Assembly: GCA_025356095.1 (NCBI GenBank)
Contig: JANXUR010000097.1
Coordinates: forward strand, 62,001-126,000
DNA: 64,000 bases
Source of the DNA: Acidobacteriaceae bacterium
GTDB taxonomy: Bacteria; Acidobacteriota; Terriglobia; Terriglobales; Acidobacteriaceae
Reading direction: 5' to 3'
Program-made: the position numbers and the translations under genes
Shown here: piece by piece, positions 38,667 to 47,375 of the stretch
How the letters are laid out: every line of letters starts with the position of its first letter
How positions within the stretch are numbered: the stretch's first letter is position 1
The notes under the pieces: generated by a model
The model's database searches: none
What the model was told of the DNA's origin: nothing
The model's input: the letters and a program-made list of their open reading frames with translations, nothing else

Positions 38667-40346
38667 CTATTGCGGACAGGGACAGAGGCCGTACACATCG
38701 AGTTCCGTCGCAGTGCCGACATAGACTTTGCCATTGATCACAGTGGGAACCTGATACTTAGTGAACGGCCCTGCCCGATCGCGTCCGGAAGCAGCTTGCA
38801 TACTGTTATAGAGTTCAGAGCTGAGGTTGGTAGCGTCGAATGCGTGTAATACAAGTGGCTTTCTGCCGGGGAACAAATCGGCGCTCCCGGTGAAGTCGAG
38901 TCCCCACACAATGCCGTTGCTAGTTCCGTTGGAAGACACGACTGCCGAAGTGCCGTTCGCAAAGACAAAGTTGGTGTGCATCACGTCTGTGGCGCTGACG
39001 CCAGCAGCGGAAACGGTGAAGGCTCGAATGGAATCGCCATTGGCGGTGTTGTAGATGTACTGGGTGGTTCCGCTGTTCCAGTAGCCGGGGGAGCCTTCTG
39101 TAGATCCGGCGGCGCTGGTGAAGGAGACTTGGCCGCCGACGTGGCCCATGTTATCGCGATTCACTACGTAATACTGGCCAACGGGGTCGCACAGGGAGGA
39201 AATCTTGCCAGCCTGAAAGATCAGATTCGGTGTAGTTCCGCCCTGCGAAGGAAGGATGAGGGGGCCGGCAGAGCCGAGGTCATAGCTTTGCTGCCAGCGG
39301 CAGGTATAGTCAGTGGGGGTAAAAGAGTCAGCAACTACGAGTGAGTAAGCACCAGTCGTACCGGTAAGGGATAACTTGACCAGACTGTCGCCCCAGTTAA
39401 CGCCTCCGTCAAAAAAGCCGTCGCCGGTGACAGCATAGACGTTGCCGGCGGTATCGGCAGCAATTCCGCTGCCGCCACCCCACACACCGCTATGTCCGGT
39501 GCCGGGAAGACCGGGGACACTATGGGCCTTGCCATCGTAGGTGTAGAAGCCAGCCAGAAAAGTAAGGCTGGCCGCATCATAGGCGAGGACCCAACCAGCG
39601 TTGCCGGCAAAGCCTAGGTAAAGGACGCCTTGGCCGAAGCGGGAGTCACTCACCAGCAACATACCCGGGCGCGGTTGTTGATGCTGCGGCGGGAAGCTGC
39701 CCAAAGTGCCAAACGAGCAGCCATTGTTGCCCGACCCAGAGCAGATGGTGACCGGACTACCTACGCGCTCACTGCCATTCGCGATATTAAGTGCGTGCAA
39801 CTTCACCACATAAGTGGTCACGTTATTTGTGGTTTCCTGCGTGCGCACAGTTACGTAGATGGTGTTGGTGGCCAGATTGATCACCGGGGTGGAAGTGATT
39901 CCGACGACTGGGAACAACTGGCAAATGCCCGCACCCACGGCACACGGTACCGGCAAGACGCTCGGCGGAGTTAGGAAACTGGTCTTCCAGACGGGTGCTG
40001 GATTGGTTTTGGCGCTGTCCGCGTCAAAGGCGTAAAGAGTGTCGTTCTCGGTCGCAACATACACGAGGTTGTGGACGCCCGACGTCGTGCTGACGTTTTG
40101 TAGGTAGAGCGGCTGGGCATAGATCTGGCCATCCACCGGATAGCTAAAGATCTTGCCAAAGGAAGTGGAGTTGACGTTGGCGGGTGTCAGAATGGTTTCT
40201 TGCAGATTCTGTCCTGTTCGTTGATTGTCGTTTTCACGGGTCAGGACGTTGAGGCCAGCCGCAGGGGCGGTAGAGTGTTCTGCCGCCTTCTGGGCGAAAC
40301 CAAAGCTGGAAACTAGAATCAGGCCGAGGGCCAGCAAACGGTACAT
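38667..40346 (-). CDS. Secreted PQQ-like beta-propeller protein
   Basis: 559 residues from the ATG at 40346 with a strong GGAGGT. Signal peptide to about GFAQ. The body repeats propeller blades with LYAFDAD, NTIYVTVRTQ and the segment VYAVTGDGFFDGGVNWGDS. The order of blades matches the C-terminal ~500 residues of the giant protein at 28.2-33.1 kb, starting with NDNQRTGQNLQE against its DLQRTGQNLNE. No PQQ-binding Trp-disk or Cys-Cys ring is obvious, so an enzymatic dehydrogenase role is unlikely. Extracellular ligand or scaffold role is guessed. Confidence 0.7.
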   Translation of the reverse strand: MYRLLALGLILVSSFGFAQKAAEHSTAPAAGLNVLTRENDNQRTGQNLQETILTPANVNSTSFGKIFSYPVDGQIYAQPLYLQNVSTTSGVHNLVYVATENDTLYAFDADSAKTNPAPVWKTSFLTPPSVLPVPCAVGAGICQLFPVVGITSTPVINLATNTIYVTVRTQETTNNVTTYVVKLHALNIANGSERVGSPVTICSGSGNNGCSFGTLGSFPPQHQQPRPGMLLVSDSRFGQGVLYLGFAGNAGWVLAYDAASLTFLAGFYTYDGKAHSVPGLPGTGHSGVWGGGSGIAADTAGNVYAVTGDGFFDGGVNWGDSLVKLSLTGTTGAYSLVVADSFTPTDYTCRWQQSYDLGSAGPLILPSQGGTTPNLIFQAGKISSLCDPVGQYYVVNRDNMGHVGGQVSFTSAAGSTEGSPGYWNSGTTQYIYNTANGDSIRAFTVSAAGVSATDVMHTNFVFANGTSAVVSSNGTSNGIVWGLDFTGSADLFPGRKPLVLHAFDATNLSSELYNSMQAASGRDRAGPFTKYQVPTVINGKVYVGTATELDVYGLCPCPQ

Positions 40347-40868
40347 ATCCACCTCCAAAGTCTGGATCAGAAACTACGGGTAACGCGGTAAGGTGCTGCC
40401 ACTAGGTGGTGCCGGATGCGACCAGAAAGGCGGCCGATACCGGGCGCATTGCGAGGCTGCGGACGCGCATTCGCCGGGAACGGAGGGTGCAAATACGACC
40501 GCGGAAACTGCCGGAAAAACGGGCAAAAACTACATCCGGAAGTACACCGATTCGGGCGCAGCAGACACGGGAAGCACAAGCCGTTTTCAGCGAACTACAG
40601 GTCTCGACCTCGGTGGTACGTCAATGGGGGAGATTGACTCTACCATTACAGCAGAAGATGGGGAAAATGGAAAGGAAAAAGAACCGGCAAATCGGGCAGA
40701 TATTGAGCTGCAAGAGTCGGCAGAACTCATGGGTTTACTACAGCGGCTCGTACGCCAGACGGCAGGGGAGGTAAGGGCAGCGTGAGGCGGGCGCCTTTGG
40801 TCAATTTCGTGCGTTCCCGGTCGTTTCATGGTGTTTCCGGTTATCGTTGGCTCGGATTCTGCTTTTGC
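40347..40868. other. Intergenic region upstream of the his promoter
   Basis: 522 bases between the divergent propeller gene and the his leader. Several short frames overlap each other here on both strands. None has a recognisable motif, so I call no gene. GC composition falls toward the promoter. Confidence 0.4.
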
Positions 40869-40897
40869 TTGACGGCAGAGCGTTTCACGATTATGCT
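40869..40897 (+). promoter_or_regulatory. Predicted sigma-70-type promoter of the histidine operon
   Basis: -35 box TTGACG at 40869-40874 and -10 box TATGCT at 40892-40897 with a 17-bp spacer. The expected start of transcription is about 40904, only a few bases before the leader-peptide ATG at 40908, so the leader would be leaderless or nearly so. The box quality is good but unproven. Confidence 0.5.
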
Positions 40898-40907
40898 CGG
40901 GGTTAGC

Positions 40908-40979
40908 ATGAATCTTTTCGGCCATCGCCATCACCATCATCACCATGCCATCGGCGTGTCGGCGAGGTTGTGCGGATAG
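40908..40979 (+). CDS. hisL: Histidine operon leader peptide
   Basis: 23 codons with the start ATG at 40908 and TAG at 40977. Residues 6-13 are HRHHHHHH, seven His codons within eight, just before the his biosynthetic operon. This is the signature of ribosome-mediated attenuation: low charged tRNA-His stalls the ribosome on this run. An in-frame ATG at 40893 would add five residues. A terminator hairpin begins 32 bases after the stop codon. Confidence 0.85.
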   Translation: MNLFGHRHHHHHHAIGVSARLCG

Positions 40980-41010
40980 AGCGAACTACACTTTAGAGCT
41001 TCTACTTATC

Positions 41011-41048
41011 CGGCCCGCTGACTCCACTCAGCGGGCCGTGTGCTTTTG
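41011..41048 (+). terminator. Attenuator terminator of the his operon
   Basis: A perfect 11-bp GC-rich stem (41011-41021, 41028-41038), 6-nt loop, then TGTGCTTTTG. It sits between the leader peptide and hisI. A competing pair is CGGATA at 40973-40978 with TATCCG at 41007-41012, which invades the first two bases of the stem; this is a weak antiterminator candidate. Confidence 0.7.
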
Positions 41049-41100
41049 TGGCACGTTCCGCTCGGTGTAGTCGGCACCGGAGGAATGAGAGAGAGTACCG

Positions 41101-41460
41101 ATGGAAATAGCCATTGATTTCCAAAAGATGGACGGGTTGGCCCCGGCCATTGTGCAGGACGCTGCCAACGGCGACGTTCTTATGGTGGGATTTGTGAACC
41201 CAGAGTCGTTGGCGCTAACGATGGACACGGGGTTCGTCACTTTTTACAGTCGAACCCGGCAGAAGCTGTGGATGAAGGGTGAAACCAGCGGCAATCGCCT
41301 GCAAGTGGTAACAGCGGCGACTGACTGCGACGCCGACACCCTGTTGTTCCGAGTCAACGTGCAGGGCGATGGTTTGGTCTGCCATGAGGGCACGCGGTCT
41401 TGCTTTACGCGCGAAATTGCTCTGAAAGCCGCCGCACAGGAAGCTGAGGTGGCGCAATGA
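41101..41460 (+). CDS. hisI: Phosphoribosyl-AMP cyclohydrolase HisI
   Basis: 119 residues; third step of histidine synthesis, opening the adenine ring of PR-AMP. It has the [16 protein letters not shown] segment, and Cys/Asp metal ligands in [13 protein letters not shown] and the final CHEGTRSCF. The HisE (pyrophosphohydrolase) domain found in fused HisIE proteins is absent. First enzyme gene of the operon; ends with an ATGA overlap with hisG. Confidence 0.95.
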
Positions 41461-42326
41461 AGCTGAAACTTGGCATCCCCAAAGGCAGCTTGCAAGACGC
41501 CACGATTGCATTGTTCGCGCGTGCGGGCTTCAATATCTACGCGAATGGGCGCTCCTATTTCCCCGGCATTGACGACCCAGAGATCGAGTGCATGTTGATT
41601 CGCGCGCAAGAGATGGCGCGCTATGTGCACCACGGCGCGCTCGATGCCGGGCTTACCGGTAGCGATTGGGTGACCGAAAGCGGGCGGGACGTGGCTCGCA
41701 TTGCTGACCTGGTGTATGCCAAGCAGAGCCGCAGCAAGGTGAAGTGGGTGCTGGCGGTGCCGGAGGATTCGCGCTTCCGCAGACCAGAGGATTTGGCGGG
41801 ATGCATTATCGCAACCGAGCTGGTGGGCGTAACCAAAAAGTATTTTGCCGAGCGCAATATCCCCGTGCAGGTGGAGTTCAGTTGGGGCGCCACCGAGGTG
41901 AAGCCGCCGGTGCTGGCCGATGCGATTGTAGAGGTCACCGAGACGGGATCGTCGCTAAAGGCGAACCGGCTGCGCATTATTGAAACGGTGATCGAGTCGG
42001 TGACACAACTGATTGCCAACCCCACCAGCTTCGCGGACGAGTGGAAGCGCCGCAAGATCGAAAACATCGCGCTGATGCTGCGTGGCGCGATTGAAGCGCA
42101 GGGCCGGGTGGGCCTGATGCTGAACGTGCAGAAAGAAAATCTGCAGGCGGTACTGGGGGTGCTGCCTGCGTTGAACAGTCCTACGGTCTCTTCGCTCAGC
42201 GACTCAGGCTGGTTTGCGGTCAATACCATACTAGAAGAAGCCACGGTGCGGGACGTGATTCCACAGTTGAAGGCGGCAAATGCCGCAGGCATTGTGGAGT
42301 ATCCGCTGAATAAGGTGGTGTTGTGA
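41457..42326 (+). CDS. hisG: ATP phosphoribosyltransferase HisG, long form
   Basis: 289 residues, the committed step joining ATP and PRPP. Long-form HisG with a C-terminal ACT-like regulatory domain (about 215-289, starting near [16 protein letters not shown]) that gives feedback inhibition by histidine, so no HisZ is needed. Catalytic region includes [12 protein letters not shown] and the PRPP site [15 protein letters not shown]. Start overlaps the hisI stop (ATGA). Hence the operon is controlled both by attenuation and by feedback. Confidence 0.95.
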
Positions 42327-43585
42327 TGCGACGGCTGGAAGGCCGAGCGGCGGGCGAGTATGTAGAGCGCTGCAGCCGACGGCAGGCTGCCAACTTGGAT
42401 GCTGTGGAACCGGCCGTCGCGGAAATTGTATGCAGAGTTCGCGATGGCGGAGATGCCGCGTTACGGGCTTATGCGGAGCAATGGGACGGTCTGGCTGCGG
42501 GCGAAGCTTTGTTGGTATCGAGCGAGAGAATGCAGGGGGCTCTCCGGTTGGTATCACCAGAGTTCTTGCAGGCGTTGCGGGAAGCAGCCACCAGCATTCG
42601 CTGCTTTGCCGAGCGTCAGCTTCCGCGCGAGTGGCGGCAAGAACAGGAGGGGCTAACACTCGGGCAGATCGTGCGACCGCTAATGGCGGTAGGATGCTAT
42701 GTGCCCGGAGGGCGCTATCCGTTGCCTTCTACGCTGCTGATGACGGTAATTCCGGCGCAAGTTGCCGGGGTGCCGCGCATTGTGGTGACGTCTCCGAACC
42801 CGGCGCCAGAGACACTTGCTGCGGCAGCGCTGCTGGGCGTGGAGGAATTCTATTGCATCGGCGGGGCGCAAGCGATTGCCGCGCTGGCCCATGGCACAGA
42901 GACGTTGGCGCGGGTGGAAAAAATTGTCGGGCCGGGCAATTCCTACGTTACGGCTGCCAAGAAGCTGGTGGCGTTTCACTGCCCGATTGACATGCTTGCC
43001 GGGCCCACCGAAGCAGTGATTGTGGCCGAAGAGGGGAACGCCGGGTGGATTGCGGCCGATCTGGTTGCTCAGGCCGAGCATGACCCGGAGGCTTGTTCCA
43101 TATTTATCACTAGCAGCACGAGCCTTGCCCACGCGGTGTCAAAGCAATTAGAGGCGCAGGCGAGTGGCAATAGGATTGCGCGAGCTGCGCTCGATGCGCA
43201 AGGCGCAATTCTGGTCTCGGAATCGCACGGGCAAGCGCTGGAGTGGGCTGATGCCCTTGCTCCAGAACACTTGACGGTGGCTGCGGCAGATGTGCCGCAC
43301 GTGCGCCATGCTGGTTCGATCTTTGTGGGTGAAAGCTCGTCGCAGGTTTTCGGTGACTACGCCGCCGGGCCAAACCATGTGCTGCCGACGGGCGGTGCCG
43401 CCCGCTGGCGTGGCGGTTTGAGCGTGCTCGACTTTGTGAAGCTGATTACAGTGCAAGAGGTGTCGGGTGCAGCCATGCAGCGACTGGCCCGCACTTCGCA
43501 GACGCTGGCTACTGCGGAAGGGCTGACCGGCCACGCGCACGCGGCCGAGTTGAGAATGGAGGCCGTGCTTGCTGACCGCGCGTAA
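42326..43585 (+). CDS. hisD: Histidinol dehydrogenase HisD
   Basis: 419 residues from the ATG at 42326, overlapping the hisG stop by one base (TGATG); a GTG one codon earlier is also possible. Oxidises histidinol to histidine in two NAD+ steps. Signatures: YVPGGRYPLPSTLLMTVIPA, the IVGPGNSYVTAAK segment, and IDMLAGPTE; the zinc and active-site His residues lie in AQAEHDPEA and ALAPEHL. Full length. Confidence 0.95.
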   Translation: MRRLEGRAAGEYVERCSRRQAANLDAVEPAVAEIVCRVRDGGDAALRAYAEQWDGLAAGEALLVSSERMQGALRLVSPEFLQALREAATSIRCFAERQLPREWRQEQEGLTLGQIVRPLMAVGCYVPGGRYPLPSTLLMTVIPAQVAGVPRIVVTSPNPAPETLAAAALLGVEEFYCIGGAQAIAALAHGTETLARVEKIVGPGNSYVTAAKKLVAFHCPIDMLAGPTEAVIVAEEGNAGWIAADLVAQAEHDPEACSIFITSSTSLAHAVSKQLEAQASGNRIARAALDAQGAILVSESHGQALEWADALAPEHLTVAAADVPHVRHAGSIFVGESSSQVFGDYAAGPNHVLPTGGAARWRGGLSVLDFVKLITVQEVSGAAMQRLARTSQTLATAEGLTGHAHAAELRMEAVLADRA

Positions 43586-44642
43586 CGCTCTGCTGGAAAT
43601 GAAGGCGTATCATCCGCCGCTTCGCGGACGCACCGGGCTGCGGCTCGACTTCAACGAGAATCTCGCGGGATGCTCGCCGCGCAGCCTGCGCGCCTTGCGA
43701 GCCATGAATACTGACGCAGTGGCGGCGTATCCAGAACGCGATGGCGTGGAAGCCGTGACGGCGGAATTTCTTGGCCTGCGGCACGAGCAAGTATTGCTGA
43801 CCAACGGTGTGGACGAGGCGATTCATCTAGTATGCGAGGCGTATCTTGAGGCGGGTGCCGAGGCGCTGATCGCGACGCCGACCTTCGGGATGTACGAAAT
43901 TTACGCCCGCCAAACCGGTGCGAATGTGGTGCAGGTGCAAGCTGGCGCAGACCTCGCATTTCCCGTAGCACGTTTTCTGGCAGCGATTACCCCGCGAACG
44001 CGGCTTGTGCTCATCGCCAATCCGAACAACCCGACGGGGCAAGCCCTCGCCATTGCTGATCTGGAAAGAATTCTGCTAGCGGCGCCTGATGCCGCGGTGC
44101 TGGTGGACGAGGCATACTTCGAGTTCCACGGCGAAACCATGATGCCAAGGCTCAGCGATTTTCCCAACCTGTTTGTGGCGCGCACATTTTCTAAAGCCTA
44201 CGGCATGGCTGGATTGCGCGTTGGTGCGCTGTGCGGCGCTGCGGAGCAACTGGGAACGCTCCGCAAAATTGTTTCTGCTTACAACGTGAATTCCGCTGCT
44301 CTGGCCTGCCTGCCCGAAGCGCTGGCTGATGCAGTATTTGTGGCGGATTACGTTGCGGAGGTAGTGGCGGGGCGGGAGCGTTTCTGTCGCGAGTTATCTG
44401 GGTGGGGGGTGGTGCATTGGCCCAGTCGCGGCAATTTCGTCTTGTGCCGGTTGGCCGATGCTCCCGGTGAGCTTGCCGGGAGCAGCAGCGGTGCCTTGGT
44501 GCTGGCGCTGCGGCAGAAGGGCATCCTTATACGCGACCGCAACGGCGACCCCGGTTGTGCGGGTTGCGTTCGTATCACCATCGGCACCAGAGAGCAGATG
44601 AATCGCTTGCTCGTGGCGATGTCGTCCGCACTGGCAATCTAG
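43569..44642 (+). CDS. hisC: Histidinol-phosphate aminotransferase HisC
   Basis: 357 residues, PLP enzyme. Start set at the TTG at 43569 because the residues that follow ([15 protein letters not shown]) fit the family N-terminus; ATG at 43599 would cut that. Overlaps hisD by 17 bases. NENLAG is the substrate-side start, NPNNPTGQ binds the phosphate, DEAYFEF holds the PLP-ring Asp, and [14 protein letters not shown] holds the Schiff-base Lys. Confidence 0.93.
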
Positions 44643-44656
44643 AGGGAAAGCATCGC

Positions 44657-45292
44657 ATGAAAAACATGGCTGCACTGCGCAAACCAACATCGCCAGGCAA
44701 GTCTCGCACTGCGAAGATCGCGCGCACGACCAACGAAACGCGGATTGCGCTAGAGTTGCGAATCGAGGGCACAGGCAAGTATCAAGTCTCCTCCGGCATC
44801 CGTTTTCTGGACCATATGCTGGAACTGTTTGCGCGGCATGGCGGATTTGACCTGATTCTCACTTGCAGCGGCGATCTGGATGTGGATCAGCACCATACGG
44901 TGGAAGACATCGGCATCGCCTTGGGCATGGCGTTTGATCAAGCACTCGGAGACAAACTGGGCATTCTACGCGCCGGATATTTTTTGATGCCGATGGATGA
45001 GACGCTTGGCATTGCTGCGGTGGACTTTGGAGGTCGCGCAGCGTGGGTGATCGAAACAAAGGTGCGCACCCGACTGGTGGGAGATTTACAGTCCGAGTTG
45101 GTGCCCGATTTTTTTGAGGGCTTCGCGCGCGGTGCGAAGGCGAACGTTCACCTTAAGACTATGTATGGCCGCTCGAACCACCACAAGGTGGAAGCACTCT
45201 TCAAAGCATTTGCACGTGCGGTGTCAGTGGCTTGTTCGCGCAACCAGCGGCTGGCCAAGATGCTGCCGAGCACCAAGGGGTTGTTGGCATGA
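44657..45292 (+). CDS. hisB: Imidazoleglycerol-phosphate dehydratase HisB
   Basis: 211 residues from ATG 44657 with AGGGAAAG upstream; a longer frame into hisC is rejected. Mn-binding His motifs are all present: [27 protein letters not shown] and the later [16 protein letters not shown]. Single-domain form without the phosphatase part, so histidinol phosphatase is separate and not in this window. Ends at an ATGA overlap with hisH. Confidence 0.95.
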
Positions 45293-45879
45293 TGGCCATT
45301 GTGGATTACGGCGCGGGGAACATTGCATCGGTGGAACGCGCGTTGCGGGCTTGCGGCGCGGAGTGCCGCGTGACCAGCCTGCCCGACGAAGTGCGCGGCG
45401 CAGCGAAAATTGTGCTGCCCGGGGTGGGGAATTTTGCCGCCACGCAGGAACTGGCGCGCTCTGGTTTGCGCCAGACGATTCTGGAACGCGTGGCAGTTGG
45501 TGTGCCTTTTCTAGGCATCTGCGTGGGCATGCAATGGATGCTGGAAGGGAGCCACGAGGCTCCGGGCGTGGCGGGTGCTGGCTGGCTCGCCGGACACTGC
45601 GAGCGCTTTCCGCATAATGCCAAGTGTCCGCATGTGGGATGGAACCAGCTCGCGAAGGTGCGGGAGTCACGCTTGCTGGCGGGCGTGGAAGACAATGCAT
45701 TCGTTTACTTTACGCACTCGTATTTTGTAGCCGCAGGGGCCGGTGACGTGGCTCGCACCGATTATAGCGTCGTGCTTTCTTCAGCGGTGGAGCGTGAGAA
45801 TATCTTCGGCGTACAATTTCACCCAGAAAAATCTGGCGACGTTGGTTTGAAAATATTGAGGAACTTTCTTGCCATCTAA
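45289..45879 (+). CDS. hisH: Imidazole glycerol phosphate synthase glutaminase subunit HisH
   Basis: 196 residues. It makes ammonia from glutamine for HisF. Triad: nucleophile Cys in [10 protein letters not shown], and His-Glu in [10 protein letters not shown]. Start from ATG 45289 (overlap with hisB stop) or the adjacent ATG 45292. N-terminus [19 protein letters not shown] is as expected. Followed by a 51-base gap before hisF. Confidence 0.94.
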
Positions 45880-45930
45880 CTTGCGAATGCGGCCCAACGA
45901 ACTCGTCCCGTCAGCGAAGGGAAGCTGCCG

Positions 45931-46707
45931 ATGCTAACCAAGCGGATCATCGCCTGCCTCGACGTTGATGGCGAACGAACGGTGAAGGGCGTGCAGTTTG
46001 CCGACCTGCGCCATGCGGGTGACCCGGCGGAGTTGGCGCTGCGCCACGCCGCTAGTGGGGCCGATGAGATTGTGCTGCTAGATATTTCTGCCACGCACGA
46101 GCAGCGGGCGACCCTGCTCCACACCGTACGCCGCACGGCATGTGAGTTGTTCATTCCGTTCTGCGTGGGCGGCGGCATTCGCACGCTGGAAGATGCGGCG
46201 CGTGTAATGGATGCGGGTGCGGACAAGGTCAGCATTAACTCCGCTGCGGTAAGCCACCCGGAACTGATCGGGCAGATTGCTGCTCGCTTTGGTTCGCAAG
46301 CCGTGGTGGTGGCGATAGACGCCCGGCGCACTGCGGACAATGTGACCGGCTGCAGTGGAGAAGTGATGCTGCGAGGCGGCCGCCAATCCACCGGCCTCGA
46401 TGTGTTGGCATGGGCGCAGAAAGCTGCCCAGTTGGGGGCTGGAGAGATTCTGCTCACTTGTATGAGTCAGGACGGCACTCGCGCAGGCTTTGACTGCGCA
46501 GTGACGGCGCTGGTAGCGCGGGCCGTGCCGATTCCGGTGATTGCTTCCGGCGGCGCAGGTTCGCCGCAGCACTTTGTGGACGTGTTTCAGCACGGTCATG
46601 CCGATGCCGCGCTGGCGGCTTCCATCTTTCATTTTGGCGAACATGCCATCGCATCAGTGAAGCAAACGCTGGCGACCGCTGGCATTCCCGTGAGGTGGCC
46701 ATGCTGA
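45931..46707 (+). CDS. hisF: Imidazole glycerol phosphate synthase cyclase subunit HisF
   Basis: 258 residues, TIM barrel. The base-catalytic Asp are in IIACLDVDG and VVVAIDARR. The later loop reads [12 protein letters not shown] where most HisF have LTSxDxDGT, so one Asp that contacts substrate is Ser here. RBS AAGGGAAG. hisF precedes hisA, the reverse of the common enteric hisA-hisF order. Confidence 0.92.
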
Positions 46708-47375
46708 TTCCTTCGATTGATTTGCAAGGTGGCAAGGTAGTGCAGTTGGTTCAGGGCAAGCGCAAAGCGCTGGAGTTTGATGATCCGGCGGAGTGGATTG
46801 CGCGCTTCCACAAATATCCTCTGGTGCAGTTGATTGATTTGGATGCCGCAATCGGCAAGGGCAGCAACCCTGCGCTGGTGGCCAGCATCGCTGCGCAACT
46901 GCCGTGCCAGGTAGGCGGCGGCATTCGCTCGGTGCAGAGTGCCGTGCACATGCTGGCGCTCGGTGCGCGGCGCGTGATTGTTGGCTCCGCTCTATTTGAG
47001 CAGGGGGCTGTTAACGTGGCGTTCGCCGAGCAGCTTGCGGATGCCGTGGGCGCACCGCAAGTAGTTTGCGCCATAGACACGCGCGGGGGCCGAATCGCCA
47101 CGCACGGCTGGGAGCAACAGGTGGAACTTACCGCAGCGGATGCGATGCCACTACTGGAGCCGTTCTGCTCGGCGTTTCTCTACACCCATATTGATACAGA
47201 AGGCACGCTGCAGGGCTTTCCTATGCACAAAGCCACGCAACTGCGGGCCCTCACCGCACGGCAATTCATCGTGGCGGGCGGCATTCGCTCGCAGGCTGAA
47301 GTGGACGCGCTACACCTTTCGCAGGTGGATGCGGTGGTTGGCATGGCGATCTACACCGGGCTGATGGACGCCTGA
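46701..47375 (+). CDS. hisA: Phosphoribosylformimino-AICAR-P isomerase HisA
   Basis: 224 residues from the ATG at 46701, which has GAGGTG upstream and overlaps the hisF stop; a GTG at 46695 is the alternative. TIM barrel with catalytic Asp in [12 protein letters not shown] and phosphate site in QVGGGIRS and the [14 protein letters not shown] segment. The second acid is in [11 protein letters not shown]. Last gene of the operon; a minus-strand gene ends 26 bases later. Confidence 0.94.

Follow-up and report, generated by a model that had tools for sequence, protein, structure and literature searches.

The his operon and its upstream region

The window analysed here is a stretch of 64,000 nucleotides from the genome of an Acidobacteriaceae bacterium (3.5 Mb in 120 contigs, with a completeness rating of 100%). 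The top hisG matches of the window are Acidobacteriaceae MAGs and records of Acidobacterium, Edaphobacter, Acidipila, and Granulicella. Eight histidine biosynthesis genes are located at 41101–47375 in the order hisI-G-D-C-B-H-F-A, with hisI as the first gene. These genes, like all features described below unless stated otherwise, are on the forward strand. They are hisI (PRA-CH, 41101–41460), hisG (41457–42326), hisD (42323–43585), hisC (a class I/II aminotransferase named from its context, 43569–44642), hisB (IGPD, 44555–45292), hisH (a GATase, also named from its context, 45232–45879), and two His_biosynth genes to which the names hisF (45931–46707) and hisA (46695–47375) have been provisionally assigned. 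The listed starts of hisB and hisH are probably too early. The genes overlap one another and the sole gap is the 51 nt between hisH and hisF, so hisI to hisA are very probably a single operon. A search of the whole genome for PRA-PH (hisE, PF01503) gave no match at E up to 0.001, and 14 of 14 control genomes gave one; the PRA-PH step is missing, divergent, or unassembled in this genome.

The region in front of hisI contains a −35 hexamer TTGACG (40869–40874) and a −10 hexamer TATGCT (40892–40897), both found by sequence scan, with a spacer of 17 nt between them. They are followed by a leader ORF of 23 codons without a clear Shine-Dalgarno sequence, MNLFGHRHHHHHHAIGVSARLCG and a stop codon (40908–40979), and by an intrinsic terminator hairpin (41011–41038) with an 11-bp stem and a 6-nt loop, after which comes TGTGCTTTTG. 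The sequence-only reading of this DNA had reported the promoter pair, the 23-codon peptide with seven histidines, and the terminator hairpin upstream of hisI, and all of them are present at these positions. It had also attributed them to classical attenuation of the his operon, which is well supported by the conservation of the His-codon ORF, the hairpin, and the promoter spacing among relatives.

Related loci and alignment

A set of 110 related loci has been used for comparison, 30 of them from a genome set that includes the window's own and 80 being the best hisG matches among named records. Since the latter choice is biased to near relatives, 17 order- and class-level hisI neighbourhoods outside the locus set were added. 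Four of the 110 loci have too little upstream DNA, leaving 106. In two of the 106, no leader falls within range (L075, which has 161 nt, and L077, where it is displaced by an intron), leaving 104, and the removal of L096 (three His) and L080 (four His, scattered) gives the 102 loci analysed. Alignment A1 consists of 60 rows, as 38 loci failed the anchoring codon pattern and four of the 64 that passed (L043, L064, L070, and L108) were removed on visual inspection because they were outliers. Two of its rows, L019 and L093, are identical, so that 59 are distinct; further near-duplicates shared by the two sources were kept. Because A1 is restricted to these rows, the covariation counts given below speak mainly for the Acidobacteriaceae-type arm. 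The duplex and 1:2 helix tests cover all 102 loci and the test of the 7-nt core covers 100.

The leader ORF and its His codons

The putative sensor (40923–40946) consists of seven His codons, one at 40923 and six at 40929–40946. A short ORF with at least three His within eight codons has been found upstream of the his operon in 104 of the 106 loci. With at least four His within eight codons the count is 103 of 106, compared to 17 of 2120 dinucleotide shuffles and none of 106 reverse complements. A His cluster of this kind is not a product of chance. Outside the His run, the peptide varies along with the RNA arm and reads VSA, MPA, VLA, or RRA among relatives, and the changes after the His run tend to preserve pairing with the terminator arm.

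These observations bear on the explanation that the His-rich ORF encodes a functional peptide, for example a metal-binding one, and that the hairpin merely stops transcription arriving from upstream. His runs are able to bind metals, and an ORF of 130 codons on the same strand, a candidate gene, ends at 40785. On the other hand, the placement of the His-cluster ORF before the his operon at nearly all loci and the tendency of its non-His residues to follow the RNA arm speak against this explanation, and the next long upstream ORF (38667–40358) is on the opposite strand. A functional peptide is therefore considered very improbable.

Promoter and predicted transcription start

In the interval 40500–41500, two sigma-70-like sites have been found, compared to a shuffle mean of 0.4; one is located upstream of hisI and the other within hisI. 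Transcription usually begins 6–8 nt (about 7) downstream of the −10 hexamer. The −10 hexamer ends 10 nt upstream of the leader ATG, so the start is predicted about 2–4 nt before the ATG (region 40903–40907). Another in-frame ATG is found at 40893, 15 nt upstream of the leader ATG; it falls within the −10 box and would thus be unusable as a start if this promoter is used.

The same spacing is observed in relatives. TTGACA-like hexamers (at most one mismatch) gather 36–41 nt upstream of the leader start. A TANNNT box ends 6–12 nt upstream of the leader start, with a mode of 8 nt, in 95 of 102 loci compared to 166 of 2040 shuffles (8.1%); for the count of 95, in-frame ATGs as far as 30 nt upstream were also accepted as starts, and the shuffles were tested at one start. 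If only the nearest start is permitted, the count is 92 of 102. Seven of the 102 loci have no TANNNT at the expected position, and in several loci of the Bryobacterales type a good −10 lacks a consensus −35 partner. In a search for the best promoter reaching back about 60 nt, a score of at least 8.8 was obtained for 73 of 102 leaders, in 65 of which the site ends 6–12 nt before the start. This score was reached by 26 of 951 shuffles (two of them at 6–12 nt) and by none of 88 hisI starts and 84 hisG starts.

A Shine-Dalgarno match of at least 5/6 has been found for none of the 102 leaders, compared to 22 of 510 shuffles, 21 of 101 hisI starts, and 48 of 102 hisG starts; the hisI and hisG starts of the relatives were extrapolated from tblastn, which makes both their Shine-Dalgarno and their promoter counts rough. 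Based on the −10 spacing and the usual start rule, the leader 5' UTR would be about 0–5 nt long across the relatives. The −10 spacing and the missing Shine-Dalgarno match together lead to the prediction that the leader mRNA is leaderless. The start within about 5 bases of the ATG that had been suggested from the window is thus probable, given the −10 spacing of the relatives. Zheng et al. 2011 predicted that 9.7–19.4% of the genes are leaderless in three acidobacterial genomes (PMC3160421, from the portion of the text available), so a leaderless leader is plausible in this host.

The promoter evidence also bears on the simpler arrangement of an ordinary leadered his attenuator, in which transcription starts further upstream and the ORF is preceded by a normal 5' UTR. 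Such an arrangement has a precedent in hisL of E. coli MG1655, which has a UTR and a TAGGTT box, presumably the known promoter, ending 38 nt upstream of the ATG. In the window, however, no further sigma-70-like site was found in 40500–40868 at the threshold used, and the −10 spacing and Shine-Dalgarno counts of the relatives are against it. We regard a leadered attenuator as improbable and retain the leaderless reading.

The promoter-to-ATG pattern occurs at 19 sites in the window genome, compared to seven for the reversed pattern. By eye, the his leader was the only attenuator-like site among the 16 of these 19 that were read (L113, L128, and L130 were left out). No ATG-started leader of 8–45 codons rich in cognate codons was found within 500 nt upstream of the matches to trpE, leuA, and ilvB, with the limitation that ilvB may not be the leading gene of its operon.

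Terminator and antiterminator

The leader RNA contains segments that can form alternative helices. According to the folds, segment 1 (40919–40929) can pair with 40961–40969 to form a protector helix, 1:2. Segment 2 (40958–40982), much of which falls within the leader ORF, is the 5' arm of the antiterminator and consists of GUCGGCG (40958–40964), GGU (40966–40968), and CGGAUAGAGC (40973–40982). Segment 3 (41007–41022), UAUCCGGCCCGCUGAC, supplies the antiterminator with its 3' arm and, with the part beginning at 41011, the terminator (3:4) with its 5' arm. When 40947–41024 is folded with the terminator 3' arm left out, the antiterminator stem of the window is formed by GUCGGCG (40958–40964) with CGCUGAC (41016–41022), GGU with GCC, and CGGAUA with UAUCCG (−27.2 kcal/mol).

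The sequence-only reading had recognized only the CGGATA/TATCCG pairing, had called the antiterminator partner weak, and had considered that the switching geometry may differ. Neither point is upheld. The 7-bp helix 40958–40964/41016–41022, which engages the terminator's own 5' arm, and the GGU/GCC pairing belong to the same stem, and the pairing of the first part of segment 2 covaries in relatives. The geometry looks ordinary, with the 3' half of the leader ORF pairing with the 5' arm of the terminator.

Taken by itself, the window gives no significant result for the antiterminator (z −1.4, with 20 of 200 shuffles as good; duplex p 0.136) or for the 1:2 helix (z −0.48, and z −0.16 for 40905–40982). 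Among the relatives, the antiterminator does reach significance. A terminator-like hairpin is present in 102 of 102 loci, although the scan also yields some hairpin for 170 of the 204 shuffled sequences. With a cut-off of −18 kcal/mol or lower, hairpins before a T-rich stretch are found in 92 of 102 loci compared to 23 of 204 shuffles; CCGCYG lies within the hairpin in 90 of 102 loci. As a group, the relatives examined do not lack both the His codons and the hairpin, an outcome that would have spoken against the sequence-only reading. The protector helix 1:2 has z below −1.64 in 51 of 102 loci.

The duplex between each leader arm and its own terminator arm has a mean of −20.3 kcal/mol, compared to −17.9 (sd 0.25) when the partners are permuted, though the loci are akin and such permutation tests overstate their independence. 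The duplex beats shuffled arms at p < 0.05 in 62 of 102 loci, the remaining 40 not reaching it. The 7-nt core is wholly complementary in 51 of 100 loci, compared to 4% of shuffled arms.

In A1, 95.6% of the antiterminator cells are paired and 33 double changes are observed, compared to a shuffled mean of 9.4; none of 500 shuffles reaches 33, and the best slid control gives 12. For the terminator, 95.9% of the cells are paired, with 28 double changes compared to 10.5 in shuffles (reached by none of 500) and one in the best slid control. Two measures that count pair types are less clear, since 100 of 500 shuffles do at least as well as the antiterminator and 22 of 500 at least as well as the terminator. 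The shared arm illustrates the double constraint at column 81 of A1, which varies between U and C. With its terminator partner this column gives UA in 29 rows, CG in 21, and other combinations in nine, and with its leader partner GC in 25, GU in 21, AU in 10, and others in three. Both alternative helices covary in the 59 distinct relatives. As part of the leader ORF is also the antiterminator arm, peptide changes like the one from VSA to MPA can be read as RNA compensation.

Proposed mechanism of attenuation

We propose, with a probability of roughly 90%, that the element is a classical ribosome-mediated his attenuator whose leader peptide is encoded on an essentially leaderless mRNA. For this model we infer the position of the 5' end, leaderless translation, the ribosome footprint, and the response to histidine.

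According to the model, transcription would begin about 0–4 nt upstream of the leader AUG. A ribosome, probably a 70S ribosome as on other leaderless mRNAs, would load at the 5' end and trail RNA polymerase. When charged His-tRNA is scarce, the ribosome would stall within the His run with its 3' edge near or before 40958, which would leave segment 2 free. Segments 2 and 3 would then pair (40958–40982/41007–41022), the terminator would not form, and hisI-G-D-C-B-H-F-A would be transcribed. When His-tRNA is plentiful, the ribosome would proceed to the stop codon (40977–40979) and mask segment 2, so that 41011–41038 would fold as the terminator. The unusual step is that the ribosome would have to load on a nearly 5'-terminal AUG.

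The distance from the start of the last His codon to segment 2 is 14 nt in the window. In 88 loci, its median is 15 nt with a 10–90% range of 7–17 nt. The distance in the window and the median both agree with a segment 2 that would be free during a stall and masked by a ribosome at the stop codon. In a tenth of these 88 loci, the arm begins at most 7 nt after the start of the last counted His codon and would not be free with a ribosome stalled at that codon. With the footprint assumed here, segment 2 of these loci would be free only for stalls at earlier His codons.

An extended reading, which we consider doubtful, is that the his operon switch has two inputs, the supply of His-tRNA and the capacity for leaderless (70S) initiation. 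It is suggested by the AUG at the 5' end and by the position of segment 1, which starts 11 nt into the ORF. A failure of leaderless initiation would then allow 1:2 to form and lead to the terminator. The terminated RNA of ~135 nt would in turn serve as a leaderless message encoding a His-rich peptide, which may act in trans like Sinorhizobium rnTrpL/peTrpL.

For the classical attenuator, if leaderlessness is confirmed, the best-known attenuation mechanism would be able to run without a 5' UTR or a Shine-Dalgarno sequence, and this design would be conserved across many genera. The leaders, if leaderless, would also form a natural series in which to study how 5'-terminal initiation keeps up with RNA polymerase.

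Comparison with known leaders

The enterobacterial hisL (Rfam RF00514, His_leader) is alike in having a short ORF with a seven-His run before the his operon and in the proposed selection of antiterminator or terminator by the position of the ribosome. The E. coli operon starts with hisG, and 38 nt separate the end of its −10 from the hisL ATG. In the window, the operon starts with hisI, much of segment 2 is inside the ORF, a clear Shine-Dalgarno is missing, and the UTR is predicted to be almost absent. The Rfam His_leader model scores 18.5 bits on the window (E 0.75) and does not reach its gathering score of 49. In a scan of 40850–41150, His_leader is the top match by bit score and a chance IRES family is first by E-value. 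The element would work like a his attenuator, yet by score it is outside the curated RF00514 family.

The Rfam searches are also relevant to the idea of direct sensing, with a T-box or riboswitch responding to uncharged tRNA-His or histidine and the ORF being incidental. For Firmicutes and Actinobacteria, the matched text of PMC9413887 describes T-box control of his genes. However, none of the Rfam families scores at or above its gathering threshold in the window, the five matches of the permissive scan of 40850–41150 (E up to 10) include no T-box, and the RNA is only about 135 nt long, half of it taken by the ORF. Direct sensing is thus extremely improbable, and ribosome-mediated attenuation is preferred.

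Leaderless attenuators of other operons offer precedents for the predicted start. In the excerpted account of Sinorhizobium meliloti trpL (rnTrpL/peTrpL), a classical attenuator is transcribed into an RNA that begins at the leader ATG (PMC7298713), but that system concerns tryptophan in Alphaproteobacteria and the present one histidine in Acidobacteria. The mycobacterial polycysteine short ORFs are described as leaderless, with a codon run that attenuates the downstream operon (Canestrari 2020, as cited in the matched text of PMC9031893), and attenuation by mycobacterial leaderless Cys ORFs had been proposed (PMC4633059, excerpt). They differ in using cysteine and in occurring in Actinobacteria, and they are likened here by description rather than by sequence. 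In Firmicutes (Bacillus cereus group, Eubacteriales, and Erysipelotrichales), which are another phylum, His attenuators likewise combine a His-codon leader peptide, there with 3–5 His codons, with a terminator and an antiterminator in front of his genes; the same text, as far as excerpted, describes His attenuators in Proteobacteria and some Firmicutes (PMC9413887).

For Acidobacteria, Naville and Gautheret 2010 reported attenuators mostly without assigned functions, in the portion available, and Korolev et al. 2016 counted short leader genes with no his leader named in the matched passages (PMC4833913). Among the listed open-licence full-text matches, as excerpted, none describes a His attenuator in Acidobacteria, although a report in a subscription journal could be missed.

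Distribution among relatives

The element described here is proposed as a His attenuator of Acidobacteria. Of 150 family genomes, 106 match R1, a covariance model built from the 60 rows of A1, at E up to 0.01, and nearly all of them have a single match. No second copy has been established: the extra matches of R1 among the 150 genomes are in G018, where the match overlaps the first on the opposite strand, and in G323. The match in G323 and the one in the distant G224 show no His leader on reading, and the G323 site is the end of another gene. In the phylum, R1 matches 22 of 197 genomes, of which 21 are in the window's own family and the other has been judged false. The figure of 22 of 197 should not be taken as the true spread, since R1 models just the 3' half of the element and overlooks distant variants; in one such case, G054, the leader is present (L140) and R1 gives no match.

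Among 29 family genomes that are at least 90% complete and were covered by both the hisI search and R1, all 21 with hisI have the element and all eight without hisI lack it. Sixteen of the 21 gave rows to R1, so only five test it, and their near relatives may be included in the model. In searches for two his genes, hisI and hisD, these eight genomes (G001, G004, G010, G011, G013, G021, G022, and G024) have a match to neither, nor to the attenuator model, which suggests histidine auxotrophy.

The order- and class-level hisI neighbourhoods were chosen regardless of the leader, and 13 of the 17 have a His-cluster ORF (12 with at least four His and one with three). His leaders have also been found in records labelled Bryobacterales, Solibacter, and Vicinamibacteria. 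Acidipila rosea DSM 103428 (L038) is a cultured relative with the element. The other four of the 17 genomes have no such ORF upstream of hisI. In two of these, L145 and L147, hisI follows what by eye is the end of hisF, and in another, L138, only 264 nt precede hisI.

Two individual loci are of additional interest. In L077, a group II intron match (Rfam RF02001, 76 bits) is located at 2192–2358, between the attenuator terminator and hisI, and the leader sits 611 nt upstream of hisI. L108 comes from a record titled as a Cyanobacteria MAG, which is perhaps mislabelled or misbinned; its his leader and hisG resemble the acidobacterial ones.
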